A stretch of 64,000 nt of DNA, from positions 62,001-126,000 of the forward strand of contig CACJRL010000001.1 of the NCBI GenBank assembly GCA_902595815.1, written 5' to 3'. This document shows positions 44,112-61,580 of this stretch, piece after piece. A program made the translations under genes and the position numbers. How positions within the stretch are numbered: position 1 is the first letter of the stretch; each line of letters starts with the position of its first letter. This DNA comes from an uncultured Pelagibacteraceae bacterium (GTDB taxonomy: Bacteria; Pseudomonadota; Alphaproteobacteria; Pelagibacterales; Pelagibacteraceae). The notes beneath the pieces are model-generated. The model saw nothing but the letters and a program-made list of their open reading frames with translations, did no database searches and was not told the DNA's origin.

Positions 44112-44692
44112 TTAAATTTGCTTAAGTACTTCTTTATTTTATTAATAGGTAAACCCATAATTGTATTTTCGTCTCCATCTATGTTAACAAATAAATTTCT
44201 ACCTTCTCCTTCAATTTGATACACATTGTAAGCAAATAAAATATCATCTGGTATTTTTTTAAGGTAATCTAAAAGTTCTTTATTTGTAAATTTTTTCATG
44301 GTTAAATAGGCTCTTTCAGTATAATTCCAAATCATAGAACCATTTTTAGATATACAAACTGAACTAATTAACGAGTGCTTTTTACCATTAAGCTTTTTTA
44401 AAATATTTAATGCTTCGTTTCTATTTTGTGGTTTAGATATTAATTCTCCATCAAGATCTATGACACTGTCTGCACCCAAAACTATAACATCATGAAACTT
44501 ATTACTTACTTTGTTTGCTTTTAATTCTGCTAAATTTTTTGATATTATTTCAGGACTTGCGCCTTCTTTTATTAAACTTTCTTTTACAGGTTCTTCATCA
44601 ACATTTGATGGCTGAATATTGCAATTAAAGTTGTTGTTTTTCAATATTTCTTCTCTGACCTTGCTTTTTGAAGCTAAAATTATCTCAAACAT
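44108..44692 (-). CDS. maf: Maf family nucleotide pyrophosphatase
   Basis: MFEIILASKSKVREEIL, ADSVIDLDGELISKPQNRNEALNIL; start reassigned. Confidence 0.92.
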   Translation of the reverse strand: MFEIILASKSKVREEILKNNNFNCNIQPSNVDEEPVKESLIKEGASPEIISKNLAELKANKVSNKFHDVIVLGADSVIDLDGELISKPQNRNEALNILKKLNGKKHSLISSVCISKNGSMIWNYTERAYLTMKKFTNKELLDYLKKIPDDILFAYNVYQIEGEGRNLFVNIDGDENTIMGLPINKIKKYLSKFK

Positions 44693-45506
44693 TTTTATTT
44701 TGAATTTCAAAAATTTTAATTATAGAAGCTGCTGTTTCTTCAACAGATTTTCTAGTTACATCAATTACAGGCCATTTATTTTTCTTGAATAATATTTTAG
44801 ATTGGTCAACTTCATTTCTAATTTTTTCTAAATTTGTGTAATCAGAAGCTTCATTTTCTTTTAATGAGTTAAGTCTATTTCTTCTTATATCAAACAATCT
44901 TTCTGCTTCAGTTGTAAGTCCAATTACGCAAATATTTTTTGTTTCTATAACTCCCTTTGGTATACTCATTTCATTGACCAATGGTATATTGGAAGTTTTA
45001 AATCCTTTATTTGCAAGATAAATTGAGGTTGGGGTTTTGCTGGTCCTGCTAACGCCAACTAAGATAATATCAGATTCCGATATATTTTCTGTATTATTTC
45101 CATCATCATGGTTCATTGTAAACTGTATTGCTTCAATTCTTTTGTAATAGTCCTCATCTAAAACGTGTTGAGCACTTGGTTGATGAGTTGCTTTTTCATT
45201 TAATATTTTAGAAAAATTTAAAATTAGATCTCCTAAAACACCAAAGCAGGGAATTTTTCTCTTGTTTGCTTCATCAGCTAAAAACTTAGCTAGTTTACTA
45301 TTCACTACAGTGTATAAAATTATCGGACTTTCTTTTTCTTGAGCACCACTTAAAATTGATGAGATTTGATTTTCTGTTCTTGTAAATGAAAATTGATTTA
45401 GATCATAATTAAAATTATTAAACTGGGCTTTAAGTGCCATAAATATTCTGTCAAGTGTTTCTCCAGTTGAATCAGAAATTAAATAAACTTGGTGTGTATT
45501 TTTCAT
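44685..45506 (-). CDS. Pyruvate, phosphate dikinase regulatory protein (kinase/pyrophosphorylase, PPSR family)
   Basis: QVYLISDSTGETLDRIFMALKAQF, DIILVGVSRTSKTPTSIYLANKGFKTSNIPLV. Confidence 0.95.
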   Translation of the reverse strand: MKNTHQVYLISDSTGETLDRIFMALKAQFNNFNYDLNQFSFTRTENQISSILSGAQEKESPIILYTVVNSKLAKFLADEANKRKIPCFGVLGDLILNFSKILNEKATHQPSAQHVLDEDYYKRIEAIQFTMNHDDGNNTENISESDIILVGVSRTSKTPTSIYLANKGFKTSNIPLVNEMSIPKGVIETKNICVIGLTTEAERLFDIRRNRLNSLKENEASDYTNLEKIRNEVDQSKILFKKNKWPVIDVTRKSVEETAASIIKIFEIQNKNV

Positions 45507-45787
45507 GTATAATTTGTCAACAAAGTATTACTAAAATTAAAGATATTTTCAATTAAGCAACAAATGATAGTTTTATTTATTTGTAATCATTTAATTAACA
45601 TATTTATAAATGTTAATATCTTTTCAACAATTTTATATTTATTTAAAATGTTGAAATAAGCCATCTTTTTAGAGAGTTTTTTTTCATATTAAATGTATAA
45701 AAAGTGAGAAAAGTGTTGAAATTGAGTAATTTACGTTATCTACAAATCATACTAATAATAAATCTAAATATATTATTCTTATTATAA
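45507..45787. other. Candidate chromosomal replication origin (oriC)
   Basis: 281-bp AT-rich gap between divergent ppsR-type gene and hemE; DnaA-box-like TTATCTACA at 45736-45744; inverted repeats; nearby parAB and parS. Confidence 0.65.
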
Positions 45788-46789
45788 ATGACACCAATAA
45801 AAAATTGTATATTAAACAGAGACACAAGCATTAATCCTATTTGGCTTATGAGACAAGCTGGAAGGTATTTACCTGAATTTAGAGAAATTAGAAAAGAAAA
45901 TACAAATTTTATAAAACTATGTCTAAATTCAAAATTATCAGAGGAAATAACACTTCAACCAATTGATAGATTTGGCTTTGATGCTGCCATTATCTTTTCC
46001 GATATACTTATGGTTCCATATGGACTTGGTCAAAAAGTAGAATTTAAAAAAAATTTTGGCCCCAGTCTTGGAAATATAGATTTAGATAAATTTGAAGAAT
46101 TAGATGATAAATTTTTAACCAATAAATTATCACCCATATATGATTTATTAGAGAATTTAAGTAAGAACGATAAGTTAAAAAATAAAGATTTAATAGGTTT
46201 TGTGGGAGCACCATGGACGTTGTTAGTATATATGATAAATAGAGTTTCGCCTAAAAACGGGCTCTCTAATACTTTTTTCAAAGACAATATTTTAATAGAT
46301 AATTTGCTAAATATTTTGGATAAATTTATTAAAATACATATTAGAAACCAAATAAGAGCAGGGGCAACAATAATACAAATATTTGATAGCTGGGCAGGAT
46401 TGATTAATACTAATTTTGAAAAATATTTATATAAACCCACATTATCTTTAGTTGATTATACCAAAAAACTTGGAGTACCTGTAATTTGTTTTCCAAGAGG
46501 TATAAAAAATTATGTTGAATTTTGCAAAATTGTAAAACCTAATATGATAAATATAGATTATAATACAGATCCAAAAAGATTACTCAATGATGTTGATATA
46601 CCAATACAAGGTGGACTAGACCCCAAAATCTTATTAACTGACAAAAATAATTTGAAAAATGAAGCAACAAAATATTTAGAAATTTTTAATAATCATCCTT
46701 ATGTGTTTAACTTGGGCCATGGTATTCTGCCTGAAACAAAAATTGAAATGGTAGAAGAATTAGTAAGAATTGTTAGGGAATTTAAATGA
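45788..46789 (+). CDS. hemE: Uroporphyrinogen decarboxylase
   Basis: PIWLMRQAGRYLPEFREIR, IFSDILMVPYGLG, GFVGAPWTLLVYM, NLGHGILPETKIE. Confidence 0.97.
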   Translation: MTPIKNCILNRDTSINPIWLMRQAGRYLPEFREIRKENTNFIKLCLNSKLSEEITLQPIDRFGFDAAIIFSDILMVPYGLGQKVEFKKNFGPSLGNIDLDKFEELDDKFLTNKLSPIYDLLENLSKNDKLKNKDLIGFVGAPWTLLVYMINRVSPKNGLSNTFFKDNILIDNLLNILDKFIKIHIRNQIRAGATIIQIFDSWAGLINTNFEKYLYKPTLSLVDYTKKLGVPVICFPRGIKNYVEFCKIVKPNMINIDYNTDPKRLLNDVDIPIQGGLDPKILLTDKNNLKNEATKYLEIFNNHPYVFNLGHGILPETKIEMVEELVRIVREFK

Positions 46790-49552: not shown

Positions 49553-50389
49553 TCATAAATATTCTAATTCACTCATTTCTTTGTAAAAAAATTTTTCTAA
49601 TTCTATGGTAGTTTCCTTGCTAAGAAGCTTTTTGTAATCGTTATCTTTCCCTAAGTTAAAAAATGTTTTCCTTGTTCCATCTGAAGAAAAACTAGCTTCA
49701 TCAAAACCTTTACTTTTTTCCATCTTTTTTAATTTATTAAAATTAGTGCTTCTAATTGATTTACTTAATTTTCTTTTATCAACTTCTTTTTTATTATTAA
49801 GTAGTTTATTAGTAAATTGAATAATTTTTTCAAATGTGCTTTTAGAATCTTTTTCTAAATCTTCATATTTTATAAAAAGTTTGTTTTTTATATTTGAGTT
49901 TTTCCATGAATTATAATTCTTCGCCCAAGAACTTATAAATGAATAACTTGCATAATTATCAGAGTCATTCTTATCTTTTAAATTTCGATAAGTGCTTTTT
50001 ATCATTTCAAGTGCTTCTTTCTCATTAATTGAATAATGATTCATTAATGAAGTGATTACATTTCTAGGATCTCTCACAATAATAATTGCTCCCAACGTAA
50101 CCTCTGGTGTTGTAAAATGGTTTCCCTTATATGCCCCATACACATTGTGAGTTTTAAGGAAACGTGCCTTATTAAGTTTTTTAAGATTTTTTTGAATAAT
50201 AAGCCACTTTTCTGCAGCCTCTTCGACGCTGTAAATCTTCTTACTAAAAAATTCTCTACTAGGGAATTGTTTTATATTTTTTAATAATTTGAATTCAAAA
50301 TCTCCATCTTTTGAAAAATAATATGAAGATAACAATGACCTGATCCAAGTATTTCCACTCTTTGGGTAAGATGCTATCCAAATAATCAT
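49553..50389 (-). CDS. Sulfotransferase domain protein A
   Basis: MIIWIASYPKSGNTWIRSLLSSYYFS (PAPS-binding loop), IIVRDPRNVITSLMNHYS. Confidence 0.92.
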   Translation of the reverse strand: MIIWIASYPKSGNTWIRSLLSSYYFSKDGDFEFKLLKNIKQFPSREFFSKKIYSVEEAAEKWLIIQKNLKKLNKARFLKTHNVYGAYKGNHFTTPEVTLGAIIIVRDPRNVITSLMNHYSINEKEALEMIKSTYRNLKDKNDSDNYASYSFISSWAKNYNSWKNSNIKNKLFIKYEDLEKDSKSTFEKIIQFTNKLLNNKKEVDKRKLSKSIRSTNFNKLKKMEKSKGFDEASFSSDGTRKTFFNLGKDNDYKKLLSKETTIELEKFFYKEMSELEYL

Positions 50390-50407
50390 ATATATATTCT
50401 ATCCATC

Positions 50408-51232
50408 TTATAAATATCTTAGATTTCTCATTGTATCTCTGTATTTATTTTCAATTTCATCGGATATATTTTTTGCAATATTATTTTTCCAATTATTTTC
50501 TGGACCTTTATAAAAAAAATTAAACTCCTTTTCTCTATTTTTATATTCATCGAAATTGCCTTCTTTCTCAAGTTTTTGTAATTGTCTAAACTCTGTTGTT
50601 TCAATTATTTTCTTAATTTTGTTTTCATTAATATTTAGAACCATATAATTTTTCAGAAATTCGTAAATTCTTATAATTTCTTTATCGATATTATCTATTA
50701 AATTTTCATATTTTATTAGTAATAAATTATCATTGTGTTTTGTCCAAGATTTATAGTGATCGCCCCAATCGGTAATTGGAGTAATCACACCTTCTTTTCC
50801 ATCAATACTTTGTTTCAATGCCCTATTTTCAATTAGAAAATTTTTTGCTTTCTCATTTGTCATTTTAAAATGATTGGCAATTGAACTAACTAAATTTCTT
50901 GGGTCTCTAACTATGTATATTGTTGCTAAAGTATTTTTTTTGTTTGTGAAAGAATAATTTGCAATCTTGATATTTGCATTATGTGTTTTAAAGAAAAATA
51001 TTTTTTTTTCTTGGTTAACTTTTTCTTGGGCCGTTATCCAATGTTTACAAACTTCTTCTATATCTGAGTATCTTTCTGTTACTTCTCTAAAATGAGCTTC
51101 TCTTGGGAATTGAGGTATTTTTTTTAACAGACTCATTTTAAATTGTCCATTAGAGGAGAAAAGCATGGAAGAGATTATAGTACGCACCCAAGTATTCCCA
51201 CTCTTTGGGTAAGATGCAATCCAAATAATCAT
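50408..51232 (-). CDS. Sulfotransferase domain protein B
   Basis: MIIWIASYPKSGNTWVRTIISSMLFS, YIVRDPRNLVSSIANHFK; start reassigned from 51436, which would run antisense through mnmE. Confidence 0.92.
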   Translation of the reverse strand: MIIWIASYPKSGNTWVRTIISSMLFSSNGQFKMSLLKKIPQFPREAHFREVTERYSDIEEVCKHWITAQEKVNQEKKIFFFKTHNANIKIANYSFTNKKNTLATIYIVRDPRNLVSSIANHFKMTNEKAKNFLIENRALKQSIDGKEGVITPITDWGDHYKSWTKHNDNLLLIKYENLIDNIDKEIIRIYEFLKNYMVLNINENKIKKIIETTEFRQLQKLEKEGNFDEYKNREKEFNFFYKGPENNWKNNIAKNISDEIENKYRDTMRNLRYL

Positions 51233-51278
51233 AGAAAAATTTATATATTTAAATTCAATACTAGCTATAATTGATTTA

Positions 51279-52610
51279 ATGACAATATATGCTCTATCCT
51301 CAGGTCCAGGTATTGCTGGAATTTCTGTCATAAGAGTATCTGGCTCGAAAACAAGGGATGTTATTGTTAATTTAACCAAGCAAAAAGCACCAGAGCCAAG
51401 AGTTGCAACATTAAGAAAATTTAACAAAATCAACAATAATGAGCTTATAGATGAAGGAATATTAATATGGTTTCCAGGACCTAACAGCTATACAGGTGAG
51501 GATATGGCTGAATTCCATGTTCACGGCAGCAAAGCAGTTGTAGATTCTATCCAGGACACAATATCAAAAATTGATGGCTGCAGATTGGCAGATCCAGGCG
51601 AATTTACTAAGATAGCTTTTCAAAACGGTAAAGTAAATCTTTTAAAAGCTGAAAGTATCTCAGACTTAATATCTTCTGAAACAGAAATTCAAAGGCAGCA
51701 AGCTATTAAAATCATGTCTGGAAAAAGTTCAGAAAAATTTAATTCTTTAAGATCAAGATTGATAAAAATTCTATCTAATGTTGAAGCAAAAATTGATTTT
51801 CCAGAAGACGATTTACCTAATGATATTTTAGAAAATATTCATACTGAAACTGATTATATTATAAATGAAATAGAAAAAATATTAAATGACCAAAGAGTAG
51901 GAGAAAGAATTAGAGAAGGTTTTAAAATTGCAATTGTCGGTCCAACTAATGCTGGCAAGTCTTCACTCTTAAATTATTTATCAAGAAGAGATATTGCAAT
52001 TGTTTCAGAAATTGCTGGAACTACAAGAGATGTGATTGAGGCTCATCTAAATTTAGACGGCTTCCCAGTTATTGTATCGGATACTGCTGGAATAAGAGTT
52101 TCAAAAAATGAAATAGAAAAAAAAGGAATTAAATTGGCCCTAAAGAAGGCTGAAAATGCTGATTTAAATATAATTGTACTAGAGCCTAAAAGTCAGGATT
52201 TTAGTGACTTTTTCGATGAATCTGCAATAAAGAAGTCAATTTTAGTGGTAAACAAATCAGATTTGGGTGTTAATCAAATTAGCAATGAAATTAGAAAATA
52301 TAACCCAATATTTATATCCGTAAAGAAAGAAAAAAATTTAGATCAACTGATTGATCTTATTAAAGAAAATTTAAAAAATAAATTTATATCAATTAAAGAT
52401 ATTTATATTACAAGAGAAAGACATAGATCTAATCTTAAGAATTGTGTTGAACATTTAAAAAGTTTTATAGAAAAAAAATCTCTTCAAGATTTCGATAAAG
52501 GAGCAGAAGATTTAAGATTGGCTGTAAGATATCTTGGAATGATAGTTGGTAAAGTTGATGTTGAAGAGGTATTAGGATCAATTTTCAATGATTTTTGCAT
52601 TGGCAAATAA
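51279..52610 (+). CDS. mnmE: tRNA uridine-5-carboxymethylaminomethyl(34) synthesis GTPase MnmE
   Basis: IYALSSGPGIAGISVIRVSG, IVGPTNAGKSSLLNYLSRRDIAIVSEIAGTTRDVIEAHL, C-terminal FCIGK. Confidence 0.97.
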   Translation: MTIYALSSGPGIAGISVIRVSGSKTRDVIVNLTKQKAPEPRVATLRKFNKINNNELIDEGILIWFPGPNSYTGEDMAEFHVHGSKAVVDSIQDTISKIDGCRLADPGEFTKIAFQNGKVNLLKAESISDLISSETEIQRQQAIKIMSGKSSEKFNSLRSRLIKILSNVEAKIDFPEDDLPNDILENIHTETDYIINEIEKILNDQRVGERIREGFKIAIVGPTNAGKSSLLNYLSRRDIAIVSEIAGTTRDVIEAHLNLDGFPVIVSDTAGIRVSKNEIEKKGIKLALKKAENADLNIIVLEPKSQDFSDFFDESAIKKSILVVNKSDLGVNQISNEIRKYNPIFISVKKEKNLDQLIDLIKENLKNKFISIKDIYITRERHRSNLKNCVEHLKSFIEKKSLQDFDKGAEDLRLAVRYLGMIVGKVDVEEVLGSIFNDFCIGK

Positions 52611-52686: not shown

Positions 52687-54558
52687 ATGAAAAATGAGTT
52701 ATTCTTTGATGTAGTTGTAATAGGTGGAGGTCACGCTGGATGTGAGGCTGCGGCAGCATCAGCAAGATTAGGTGTTAATACCGCACTATTTACTCATAGT
52801 TTTGATACAATTGGTGAGATGTCATGTAATCCTGCAATAGGAGGATTGGGCAAAGGACATTTGGTAAGAGAAATAGATGCCCTAGATGGAGTTATGGGTG
52901 AAGTAGCAGATAAATCTGGTATTCAATTTAGACTATTAAATAGAAGCAGAGGACCAGCTGTTAGAGGGCCTAGAACTCAAAGTGACAGGTCATTATATAA
53001 AAAATTTATGCAAGAAAAACTTGTAAACTATTGTAATTTATGCATTTTTTCTGATCCTGTAATTAAGTTTATATTTAAAAAAAATAATATAAGTGGATTT
53101 ATCACTCAATCTGGTAAAGAAATAAAATCATCCAAGATAATTCTAACAACTGGCACTTTTTTGAATGGTTTAATTCATATTGGCGATAATAAAACTCCTG
53201 CCGGACGATTTAATGAAAAACCCTCAACAGGTTTAAGTGAGCAGTTAAAAAAATATAATTTTAAAATAGGAAGATTAAAAACTGGAACACCTCCAAGACT
53301 TGATGGTCGTACAATCAATTTTAAAAACTTAGAAGAGCAACATGCAGACGATGATCCTTATTTTTTTTCATTTCTAACTAAGAAAAATCTTAACAAACAA
53401 ATTTCATGCCGAATGACATATACTAACGAAGCAGTTCATAAAATTATTTCTAAAAATCTAAAAAGGAGTGCAATGTATTCAGGAAGTATCGCAGGTGTGG
53501 GTCCGCGATATTGTCCATCAATTGAGGATAAGATAAAAAAATTTGCAGATAAAGAAAGACATCAAATTTTTTTAGAGCCAGAAGGATTGAATGATAACAC
53601 AATATACCCAAATGGGATCTCTACATCCTTACCAGAAGCTGTACAGCAAGAAATATGTAGTAAAATCAATGGTTTAGAGAGTGTAAAAATATTAAGGCCA
53701 GGATATGCTATCGAATATGATTTTGTAGATCCAAGGGAGCTTTTTATAACACTAGAAACAAAAAAAATAAAAAATCTTTTCCTTGCTGGGCAAATTAATG
53801 GAACAACTGGTTATGAAGAGGCAGCAGCTCAAGGTTTGATTGCAGGAGCAAATGCAGCTCTCGCTGTAAAAGGGAAAGAACCATTTATTTTAGACAGATC
53901 AGAGGCATATATAGGCGTTATGATAGATGATCTCATAACCAAAGGTGTTGCAGAACCATATAGAATGTTCACATCAAGAGCAGAATATAGACTTTCTCTA
54001 AGGTCAGATAATGCAGATATTCGATTAACAGATAAAGGAATAAATTCGGGACTGGTTTTAAAAGAAAGAATGGAAAAATTCCAGGAAAAACACAAAGAAT
54101 TAAAAAAAATTAGAGTTAAAATGGACAGGTTAATGATTACGCCATCAAAAATTGCAAAATTTGGCATAAATATCGCAAAAGATGGTATTAGTCGTACAGC
54201 ATACCAAGTATTAGGCCAGAAATCCGTAAATATGAGAAAAATAAGAGAAATATGGCCAGAAATTAAATATGTTTCACGTGAAATTGATGAACAATTAGAA
54301 ATAAGCTCCCATTATAAAGGTTATTTAAAAAAACAAAAGGCAGATATATTGGCTTTTAAAAGAGATGAAAACCTAATTATACCAGAAAACATAAATTATG
54401 ATAGATTTTCTGGGCTTTCAAATGAAGTAAAGTCTAAATTTAAGAAAATTAAACCTAAAACTATGGGCCAGGCTTTAAGAATTGATGGAATTACACCGGC
54501 CGCCGTATATATTTTGTTGTCTCATCTTAAAAGAAAGTCTATTAAGCATATAGCTTGA
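52687..54558 (+). CDS. mnmG: tRNA uridine-5-carboxymethylaminomethyl(34) synthesis enzyme MnmG
   Basis: [65 protein letters not shown]. Confidence 0.98.
54270..54285. promoter_or_regulatory. parS-like site (14/16 match), inside mnmG
   Basis: TGTTTCACGTGAAATT vs consensus TGTTTCACGTGAAACA. Confidence 0.75.
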
Positions 54559-55199
54559 TTGATTCGAATATTTTAAAAATTGACAAATTATCATTCTCAA
54601 ATGTTTCACGTGAAACATTGAGAGAACTTAATGATTATTCAAATGAAATAATTAGAAGAAATAGTTCTATAAATTTAATTAGTAAAAGCACAGAAAAGTC
54701 AATAAATTCAAGGCATATTGAAGATAGTGCACAAACCATTGATTTTATTAATAAAAATGACATTAAAGTTTGTACTGATCTTGGATCTGGAGCTGGTTTA
54801 CCTGGTATAGTTTTAGGTATTTTGATGAAATCAAAAAAACCAATATTTAAGCTAATTTTTTATGAAAAGAGCTATCACAAAAGCATGTTCTTAAAACAAA
54901 TGACTAAAAAATTTAATTTAAACTCTGAAATTCATCAGAAAAATATTTTTAACGAAAAAAATTTAAAAACTGATGTAATTATTTGCAGAGCATTTAAACC
55001 TTTGCCCATAATATTTCAAATAGCAAAAACAAATTTTAAAAATTTTAAGTACATTATTATTTTTTTAGGCAAGAGTGGAAAAAAAATTTTAAATGATACG
55101 CATAAATTTTGGAATTTTGACTATGAAGAAAAAAAAAGTTCAACAAATGATGGTTCATTTATTGTTAAAATTTCAAATCTTAGAGAAAAGAATGTATAA
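54555..55199 (+). CDS. rsmG: 16S rRNA (guanine(527)-N7)-methyltransferase RsmG (TTG start)
   Basis: [48 protein letters not shown]. Confidence 0.94.
54602..54617. promoter_or_regulatory. parS centromere site, perfect 16-bp palindrome, inside rsmG
   Basis: TGTTTCACGTGAAACA, identical to the conserved chromosomal parS consensus; about 0.6 kb upstream of parA. Confidence 0.95.
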
Positions 55200-55992
55200 A
55201 AAAATAATTTCAGTCATTAATCAAAAAGGAGGGGTAGGCAAAACAACAACAGTCATAAACCTTGCAGCTGGATTATCTATGAAAGGAAAAAAAATTCTTG
55301 TAATCGATCTAGATCCTCAAGGAAATGCCACAACTGGGTTAGGATTATCTAATACTACCATTTCGGATAAGACAATTTATAGTGTTTTAAATGGAGATAA
55401 AAATATTTCAGATGTAATACAAAGAACTAGCTTTGATAATCTTAGTTTAATAACTTCAAATGTTGATTTATCGGGTCTAGAGGTAGAAACGGCTGGTGAC
55501 AGTAGAAGAGCATTTAAATTAAAGGACGAATTAGGCCTGATTTTAAATGATTCGAGAGCATCGTATGATTATATACTAATAGATTGCCCTCCGTCATTAA
55601 GTTTGCTTACAATAATGGCTTTGGTTGCTTCAGATGCCTTAGTTGTTCCACTTCAAACAGAATTTTTTGCTTTAGAGGGTTTGACTCAGCTTATGAAAAC
55701 GATCGAGAGGATAAAATCTAATTTAAACCCTTCGTTAGAGATAAGGGGCATCCTTCTTACAATGTTTGATAAAAGAAATAAGCTTTCTGGTCAAGTTGAG
55801 ATAGAGGCAAGAAATTATTTTAAAGAAAAAGTCTATTCAACTGCCGTTCCAAGAAATGTGAGATTATCAGAAGCACCCTCTCATGGTATACCAGTCCTTC
55901 TATATGATAAGTTTTGCCCTGGCAGCAAAGCTTATTTTAAATTTACAGAAGAATTTTTAGAGCAGGATAAGAAAGTTGAGAGTGCGGCTTGA
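55192..55992 (+). CDS. parA: Chromosome partitioning ATPase ParA
   Basis: [42 protein letters not shown]; start reassigned from 55093. Confidence 0.96.
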   Translation: MYKKIISVINQKGGVGKTTTVINLAAGLSMKGKKILVIDLDPQGNATTGLGLSNTTISDKTIYSVLNGDKNISDVIQRTSFDNLSLITSNVDLSGLEVETAGDSRRAFKLKDELGLILNDSRASYDYILIDCPPSLSLLTIMALVASDALVVPLQTEFFALEGLTQLMKTIERIKSNLNPSLEIRGILLTMFDKRNKLSGQVEIEARNYFKEKVYSTAVPRNVRLSEAPSHGIPVLLYDKFCPGSKAYFKFTEEFLEQDKKVESAA

Positions 55993-56840
55993 TAAATCCA
56001 TTCAAAAATAAAAAGGGTCTTGGAAGAGGACTGTCCTCATTGATAGGAGATGGTGGGATAAAAACTTCAAATGATAAAATATCTATAAGCTCAATAGTGC
56101 CCAACAAAAATCAACCAAGAAAATTTTTCGAAAAAGATGCTATTGAAGAACTTAAAAACTCAATTAAGGAGAGAGGTATAATCCAGCCATTAATAGTCAG
56201 AAAATCAGATGAACAAGACGATAAATTTGAAATAATAGCTGGAGAAAGAAGATGGCAGGCTGCTCAGTCAGCAGGTTTACATGAGGTGCCAGTTATAGTT
56301 ATTGAAGCCGACAATTTAAAATCATTAGAGTTGGCAATTATTGAGAACGTACAAAGAAAAGATTTAAATCCAATTGAAGAAGCTGAAAGTTACAAAAAAT
56401 TGATAGAAAATTTTGGTTATGATCACGAAAAAGTTTCACAATTTATAGGGAAAAGTAGATCTCATATTTCAAACTGTTTACGTTTACTTTCACTCCCAGA
56501 AAAGTTAATTGAAATGATAAGATTTGGAAAAATTTCGCAGGGTCATGCTAAAATTTTAATTGGTCTTGAAAATGCTATGTTGATTGGAGAAAAAATAATT
56601 AAAAAAAAATTATCAGTTAGACAAACAGAAAACCTTGTAAGATTCTTAAAAAATGGGAGTAAAATGTTACAAAAAAAGAAAGACTCCAATGTTATTTCAA
56701 CTGAGGAAGATTTATCTAGCAGAATTGGAATGAGAGTTTTCTTAAATAATAAAAAAAATAATTCAGGAACATTAACTTTTGAATATAAAGGTTTAGATCA
56801 GTTAGACAGATTAATCAGCGTAATTAAGAAAAATTATTGA
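55989..56840 (+). CDS. parB: Chromosome partitioning protein ParB (TTG start)
   Basis: KKGLGRGLSSLIGD, IVPNKNQPRKFF, EIIAGERRWQAAQSAGLHEVPVIV, ENVQRKDLNPIEEAESY. Confidence 0.97.
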   Translation: MINPFKNKKGLGRGLSSLIGDGGIKTSNDKISISSIVPNKNQPRKFFEKDAIEELKNSIKERGIIQPLIVRKSDEQDDKFEIIAGERRWQAAQSAGLHEVPVIVIEADNLKSLELAIIENVQRKDLNPIEEAESYKKLIENFGYDHEKVSQFIGKSRSHISNCLRLLSLPEKLIEMIRFGKISQGHAKILIGLENAMLIGEKIIKKKLSVRQTENLVRFLKNGSKMLQKKKDSNVISTEEDLSSRIGMRVFLNNKKNNSGTLTFEYKGLDQLDRLISVIKKNY

Positions 56841-61362: not shown

Positions 61363-61544
61363 TTTTTAGTTAATTTCTTTATTATTTAGATTATTTATCA
61401 ATTTTTTGAAAACCATATATAAAATCATTAAAAAGTAGCAATTAAGTGTATTTTTTGTGATGTATTATTGCAACACATTAACATTAAATTTGTTATTTTT
61501 TCTCATATTTCATCAGTTTTTAACGAATTTTGCTAAAAGAGACC

Positions 61545-61560
61545 TGTTTAATATTAAACA
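61545..61560. promoter_or_regulatory. Perfect 16-bp palindrome in porin upstream region
   Basis: TGTTTAATATTAAACA, about 20 nt before the porin ATG; function unknown. Confidence 0.5.
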
Positions 61561-61580
61561 ATTAACAAGGAGTACTTAAT

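Follow-up and report, generated by a model that had tools for sequence, protein, structure and literature searches.

The 281-bp gap between ppsR and hemE (positions 45507-45787) is very probably the chromosomal replication origin (oriC) of this SAR11 (Pelagibacteraceae) bacterium. The original prediction to this effect gained support from the gene context, from conserved sites, from a GC-skew turning zone, from a parS site near parAB and from a dnaA locus poor in DnaA boxes. Judged by its sequence, it would be a conventional oriC of the alphaproteobacterial, DnaA-dependent kind, situated in the classical place. Gene context, gap length, box positions, phased trinucleotides, parS and skew were determined by computation. 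The window, i.e. the whole stretch of 64,000 nucleotides that was analysed, corresponds to positions 62001-126000 of contig C1 in a 35-contig, 83%-complete genome. Among named relatives, the most similar hemE genes were found in Pelagibacteraceae (SAR11) single-cell and metagenome genomes.

Gene context of the ppsR-hemE gap

The gap has a GC content of 16.7%, compared with 28.7% for the window (AT 83.3% versus 71.3%); its coordinates, length and AT-richness were borne out by the sequence. When the window was tiled with ORFs of at least 60 aa, the gap was its largest intergenic region, as had been claimed, followed by one of 218 bp at 61363-61580. This second gap, divergent too, with 19% GC and without a strict match to the DnaA-box pattern TTATNNACA, is a possible control region. 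A search for RNA genes within the 281-bp gap found none; the sole RNA gene found in the window, a tRNA-Gly, lies outside it.

To the left, the putative oriC is bordered by ppsR (44685-45506, minus strand; PF03618, 308 bits), whose product is a Kinase-PPPase (DUF299/COG1806/RP001) and which is the left border gene of alphaproteobacterial origins. Its ATG ends at 45506. To the right, the ATG of hemE, coding for uroporphyrinogen decarboxylase (45788-46789, plus strand; PF01208, 269 bits), begins at 45788. Genes had been predicted to point away from the gap on both sides. This holds for the divergent pair ppsR/hemE, but not for the whole right side, where two adjoining sulfotransferase-type ORFs between rho and mnmE (49553-51436) run on the minus strand, opposite to the surrounding genes; the first of them matches PF00685. 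To the left of the gap, an SDR-type ORF sits between coaE and aroE and has to be added to the gene list given earlier.

The arrangement was conserved. All 57 Pelagibacteraceae examined, namely 30 same-genus genomes including that of the window (261-285 bp) and 27 named Pelagibacteraceae (262-286 bp), have divergent ppsR and hemE with 261-286 bp between them. The sample contained 25 further alphaproteobacterial loci with this divergent pair; in 24 of them the two genes are about 301-573 bp apart, and in the remaining one 820 bp. The hemE/COG1806 interval is the experimentally mapped origin of Caulobacter and also the origin of Rickettsia (PMC1914354). In the sister family (L196-L209), the search for ppsR gave no match beside hemE. 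There, the neighbor of hemE across the gap is a different divergent gene that looked maf-like on visual inspection, and a DnaA box followed by a trinucleotide element is retained before hemE. Another observation concerned the relative G027, whose DnaA is 98.9% identical to that of the window genome (L107), but whose HemE and PpsR are only 75% and 88% identical (L014). This contrast points to recombination near the putative origin or to rates that vary strongly there.

DnaA boxes and a trio-like element

The original prediction cited one DnaA-box-like sequence and a 22-bp inverted repeat, which are insufficient alone for an origin call. The box is indeed present at 45736-45744 (box H, TTATCTACA, plus strand). 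As evidence for an origin, a single box did not hold: the chance expectation is about 0.35 TTATNNACA per gap (20/57), so that a lone TTATCTACA does not rise above chance level, and the window as a whole contains 21 TTATNNACA versus 25.7 ± 5.3 expected. No box enrichment was found in the window genome by itself, and per-genome box density discriminated nothing. The inverted repeat TTAACATATTTATAAATGTTAA was correctly located (45595-45616), but falls short of a perfect 22-bp palindrome: its perfect 7-bp arms, TTAACAT and ATGTTAA, enclose an 8-bp centre. It is explained by two box-like sites, B and C, in face-to-face orientation.

The box cluster, weak in this genome (one strict and four one-mismatch sites), became evident across the clade. 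The 57 gaps hold 187 TTATNNACA, with at least one in every gap, compared with 20.1 ± 4.6 in dinucleotide shuffles, which ignore the kinship of the sequences. Of the 16,384 possible patterns with the layout XXXXNNXXX, TTATNNACA took rank 1 in the 57 gaps. Since this ranking was unsupervised, TTATNNACA was also weighed against any other motif conserved by shared descent. Its positions are fixed in the alignment: the main sites are strict in 35, 28, 18, 20 and 40 of the 57 sequences and have at most one mismatch in 50, 47, 28, 36 and 52 of them, the first three values in each series referring to sites A, B and C and the last to box H.

In the window gap, only H is a strict TTATNNACA, and sites A to D are conserved sites with one mismatch each. 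Site A (TTGTTGACA) lies at 45515-45523 on the minus strand. Site B (TAATTAACA, 45592-45600, plus strand) and site C (ATATTAACA, 45611-45619, minus strand) form the left and right arms of the inverted repeat, and close relatives carry a TGTGAATAA-type box in the place of C. Site D (TTTTCAACA) follows at 45621-45629 on the plus strand, where six close relatives have TTATTAACA. In many relatives, minus-strand boxes precede H at a spacing of 11 bp, about one helical turn; in the window they are degenerate. The sites are kept in close as well as distant relatives, and the check for conservation came out in favor of the prediction.

Four nucleotides past box H, on the plus strand, we observed the element ATA CTA ATA ATA (45749-45760), a T/A pattern phased by 3 nt which, read on the complement (3'-TAT GAT TAT TAT-5'), is a run of 3'-NAT-5' trinucleotides resembling DnaA-trios. 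With the first base of box H as position 1, an A occupies positions 16, 19, 22 and 25 in 53, 51, 55 and 56 of the 57 sequences, mostly with a T before it. At least three consecutive NTA trios occur in 30 of the 57 sequences, versus 2.0 in shuffles, and in one phase of three only. The rule for a basal unwinding system (BUS), a DnaA box and then at least three NAN trios within 16 nt (PMC8287927), describes the window gap, with box H, 4 nt and four trios. This rule is loose in AT-rich DNA, and it is therefore the conservation of phase that carries the weight. In the sister-family loci L198, L203 and L206, ACAGG is followed by near-perfect CTA runs in the same slot before hemE, and in L160, a low-GC Rhodospirillales MAG, TTATCCACT is followed by five CTA. 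In GC-rich Rhizobiales and Rhodospirillales gaps, the simple rule mostly picked up no DnaA-trios. Unwinding probably starts at 45749-45760. From the DnaA-trio literature (PMC8287927, PMC6669920, PMC10721633), we infer that the trio strand would be the one bound by DnaA.

A gap between divergent genes might also be nothing more than the promoter region of ppsR and hemE, with the conserved motif as a transcription factor site. Any divergent pair requires promoters, and in the well-conserved block before hemE, a -35/-10 pair might be situated around box H. The motif that emerged from the unsupervised ranking, however, is the DnaA box, and it recurs over the entire gap, on either strand. Promoters alone would moreover leave the skew zone and parS, presented below, and the synteny with alphaproteobacterial origins unexplained, and promoters and an origin can coexist in one gap. 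We therefore consider it very unlikely that the gap is merely a promoter region.

Position on the chromosome

The chromosome-scale data agreed with an origin in the ppsR-hemE gap. For the complete same-genus chromosome G012 (one contig of 1,343,202 bp, of which 1.04 Mb was sampled for the skew fit), the GC skew turns in a zone of about 1.22-1.32 Mb, which includes hemE at 1.261 Mb and the gap at 1.262 Mb. The GC-skew check proposed with the original prediction thus came out in its favor, at poor resolution. A two-segment fit placed the origin at 1.232 Mb, -30 kb from the gap (5-95% range -130 to +26 kb), and the terminus at 0.616 Mb, compared with an antipode at 0.590 Mb. The minimum of the skew curve is flat over about 100 kb, and within this plateau the gap is not separable from dnaA, 63 kb away; 65% of the bootstraps favored the gap over dnaA. 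In the sister-family genome G037, the turning zone at about 345-465 kb takes in the hemE gap (423.6 kb) but not dnaA (489 kb), and the base-level skew minimum lies 38 kb from the gap. The skew of the window's own 201-kb contig was uninformative.

The expected proximity of parAB and parS was confirmed as well. A perfect parS centromere site (TGTTTCACGTGAAACA, 54602-54617, plus strand), situated inside rsmG, lies 9 kb from the gap and adjoins parAB, and a second parS-like site with two mismatches (54270-54285, plus strand) lies inside mnmG. The gene parA (55162-55992, plus strand, start approximate) encodes AAA_31/CbiA/MipZ/ParA domains, and parB (55989-56840, plus strand) matches PF02195, PF17762 and PF23552.

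As stated in the original prediction, dnaA is absent from the window. The contig nevertheless carries it, in the order rpsT-dnaA-dnaN, at a distance of about 64 kb to the right of the gap. The encoded DnaA aligns over its full length with solved DnaA structures, among them the domain IV structure 1j1v, and its domain IV retains the box-reading signature RDHTTVIH. As in many bacteria, the origin could be located beside dnaA instead, in the rpsT-dnaA gap (about C1:171140-171384). This gap of about 245 bp is AT-rich, and GC skew by itself is compatible with such a location. Yet a set of 13 rpsT-dnaA gaps, comparable in length and composition, contains a single TTATNNACA in total versus 3.3 expected, 12 of the 13 having none, and in both G012 and G037 dnaA lies on the flank of the skew curve and not at its minimum. 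We rejected an origin at dnaA on this box content and regard it as highly improbable.

A further reading takes the boxes for a datA-like site that titrates DnaA, or for a promoter under DnaA control, with initiation elsewhere. It is scarcely credible: E. coli does have DnaA-box clusters outside oriC, but no competing site was found here that also has the gene context of an origin, and the trinucleotides next to box H are in keeping with unwinding but not with titration.

For the ppsR-hemE gap as oriC, we infer DnaA binding, the opening site and initiation itself as follows. DnaA, supplied by the gene 64 kb away, would occupy several relaxed copies of the TTATNNACA box, located on both strands. 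Box H, the last of them, would nucleate a DnaA filament on the adjoining trinucleotides, and this filament would open the A+T-rich stretch ahead of hemE for helicase loading. Forks would then depart in both directions, and ParB on the parS site 9 kb away would segregate the new origins.

Comparison with known origins

The origin of Caulobacter crescentus (Cori, between hemE and CC0001, COG1806) has its border genes, an AT-rich gap and DnaA boxes in common with the SAR11 gap. The latter, however, is shorter and its boxes are more relaxed. It also shows no sign of CtrA control. No CtrA orthologue was found: the best match to Caulobacter CtrA in five genomes had 32-33% identity. We take these matches to be other OmpR-type regulators. 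The CtrA site TTAA-N7-TTAA is absent from the window gap. Across the 57 gaps, it occurs 30 times versus 13.5 by mononucleotide shuffle, an excess that could possibly stem from TTAACA boxes. Because of the low identity of the best match and the lack of TTAA-N7-TTAA in the gap, control by CtrA as in Caulobacter is unsupported and was rejected.

The origins of Rickettsia prowazekii and R. typhi (hemE/RP001) share the border genes and have a similar AT content (about 82.5%, compared with 83.3% here), but their gaps measure 383-395 bp and have described CtrA and IHF sites (PMC1914354), compared with 261-286 bp in Pelagibacteraceae. In DNA of 83% AT, the IHF consensus was considered so degenerate as to carry little information. 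The predicted element past box H shares with the B. subtilis-type BUS a box, a 4-nt spacer and at least three trinucleotides with a middle A on the complement strand. Two loci of the sister family, L198 and L203, and also L160 contain BUS-like 3'-GAT-5' repeats, whereas the window has a single 3'-GAT-5' among its four trios, the others being 3'-TAT-5'.

A limited search of the open literature yielded no description of a SAR11 origin. The present analysis adds a clade-wide box map and a probable trio-type unwinding element. With slightly less than even confidence, we suggest that the SAR11 oriC is a stripped-down, CtrA-free origin of less than 290 bp, composed of relaxed boxes and a box-trio element, the trio having been kept though the sister family lost ppsR from the slot. 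If this is true, the box-trio element would date back to the ancestral hemE-type origin. SAR11 bacteria are among the most abundant cell groups of the ocean, and coverage peaks at the origin allow growth rates to be estimated in the sea. A mapped and conserved oriC would provide an anchor for such coverage-based estimates, and the alignment offers a small, testable candidate origin without CtrA.
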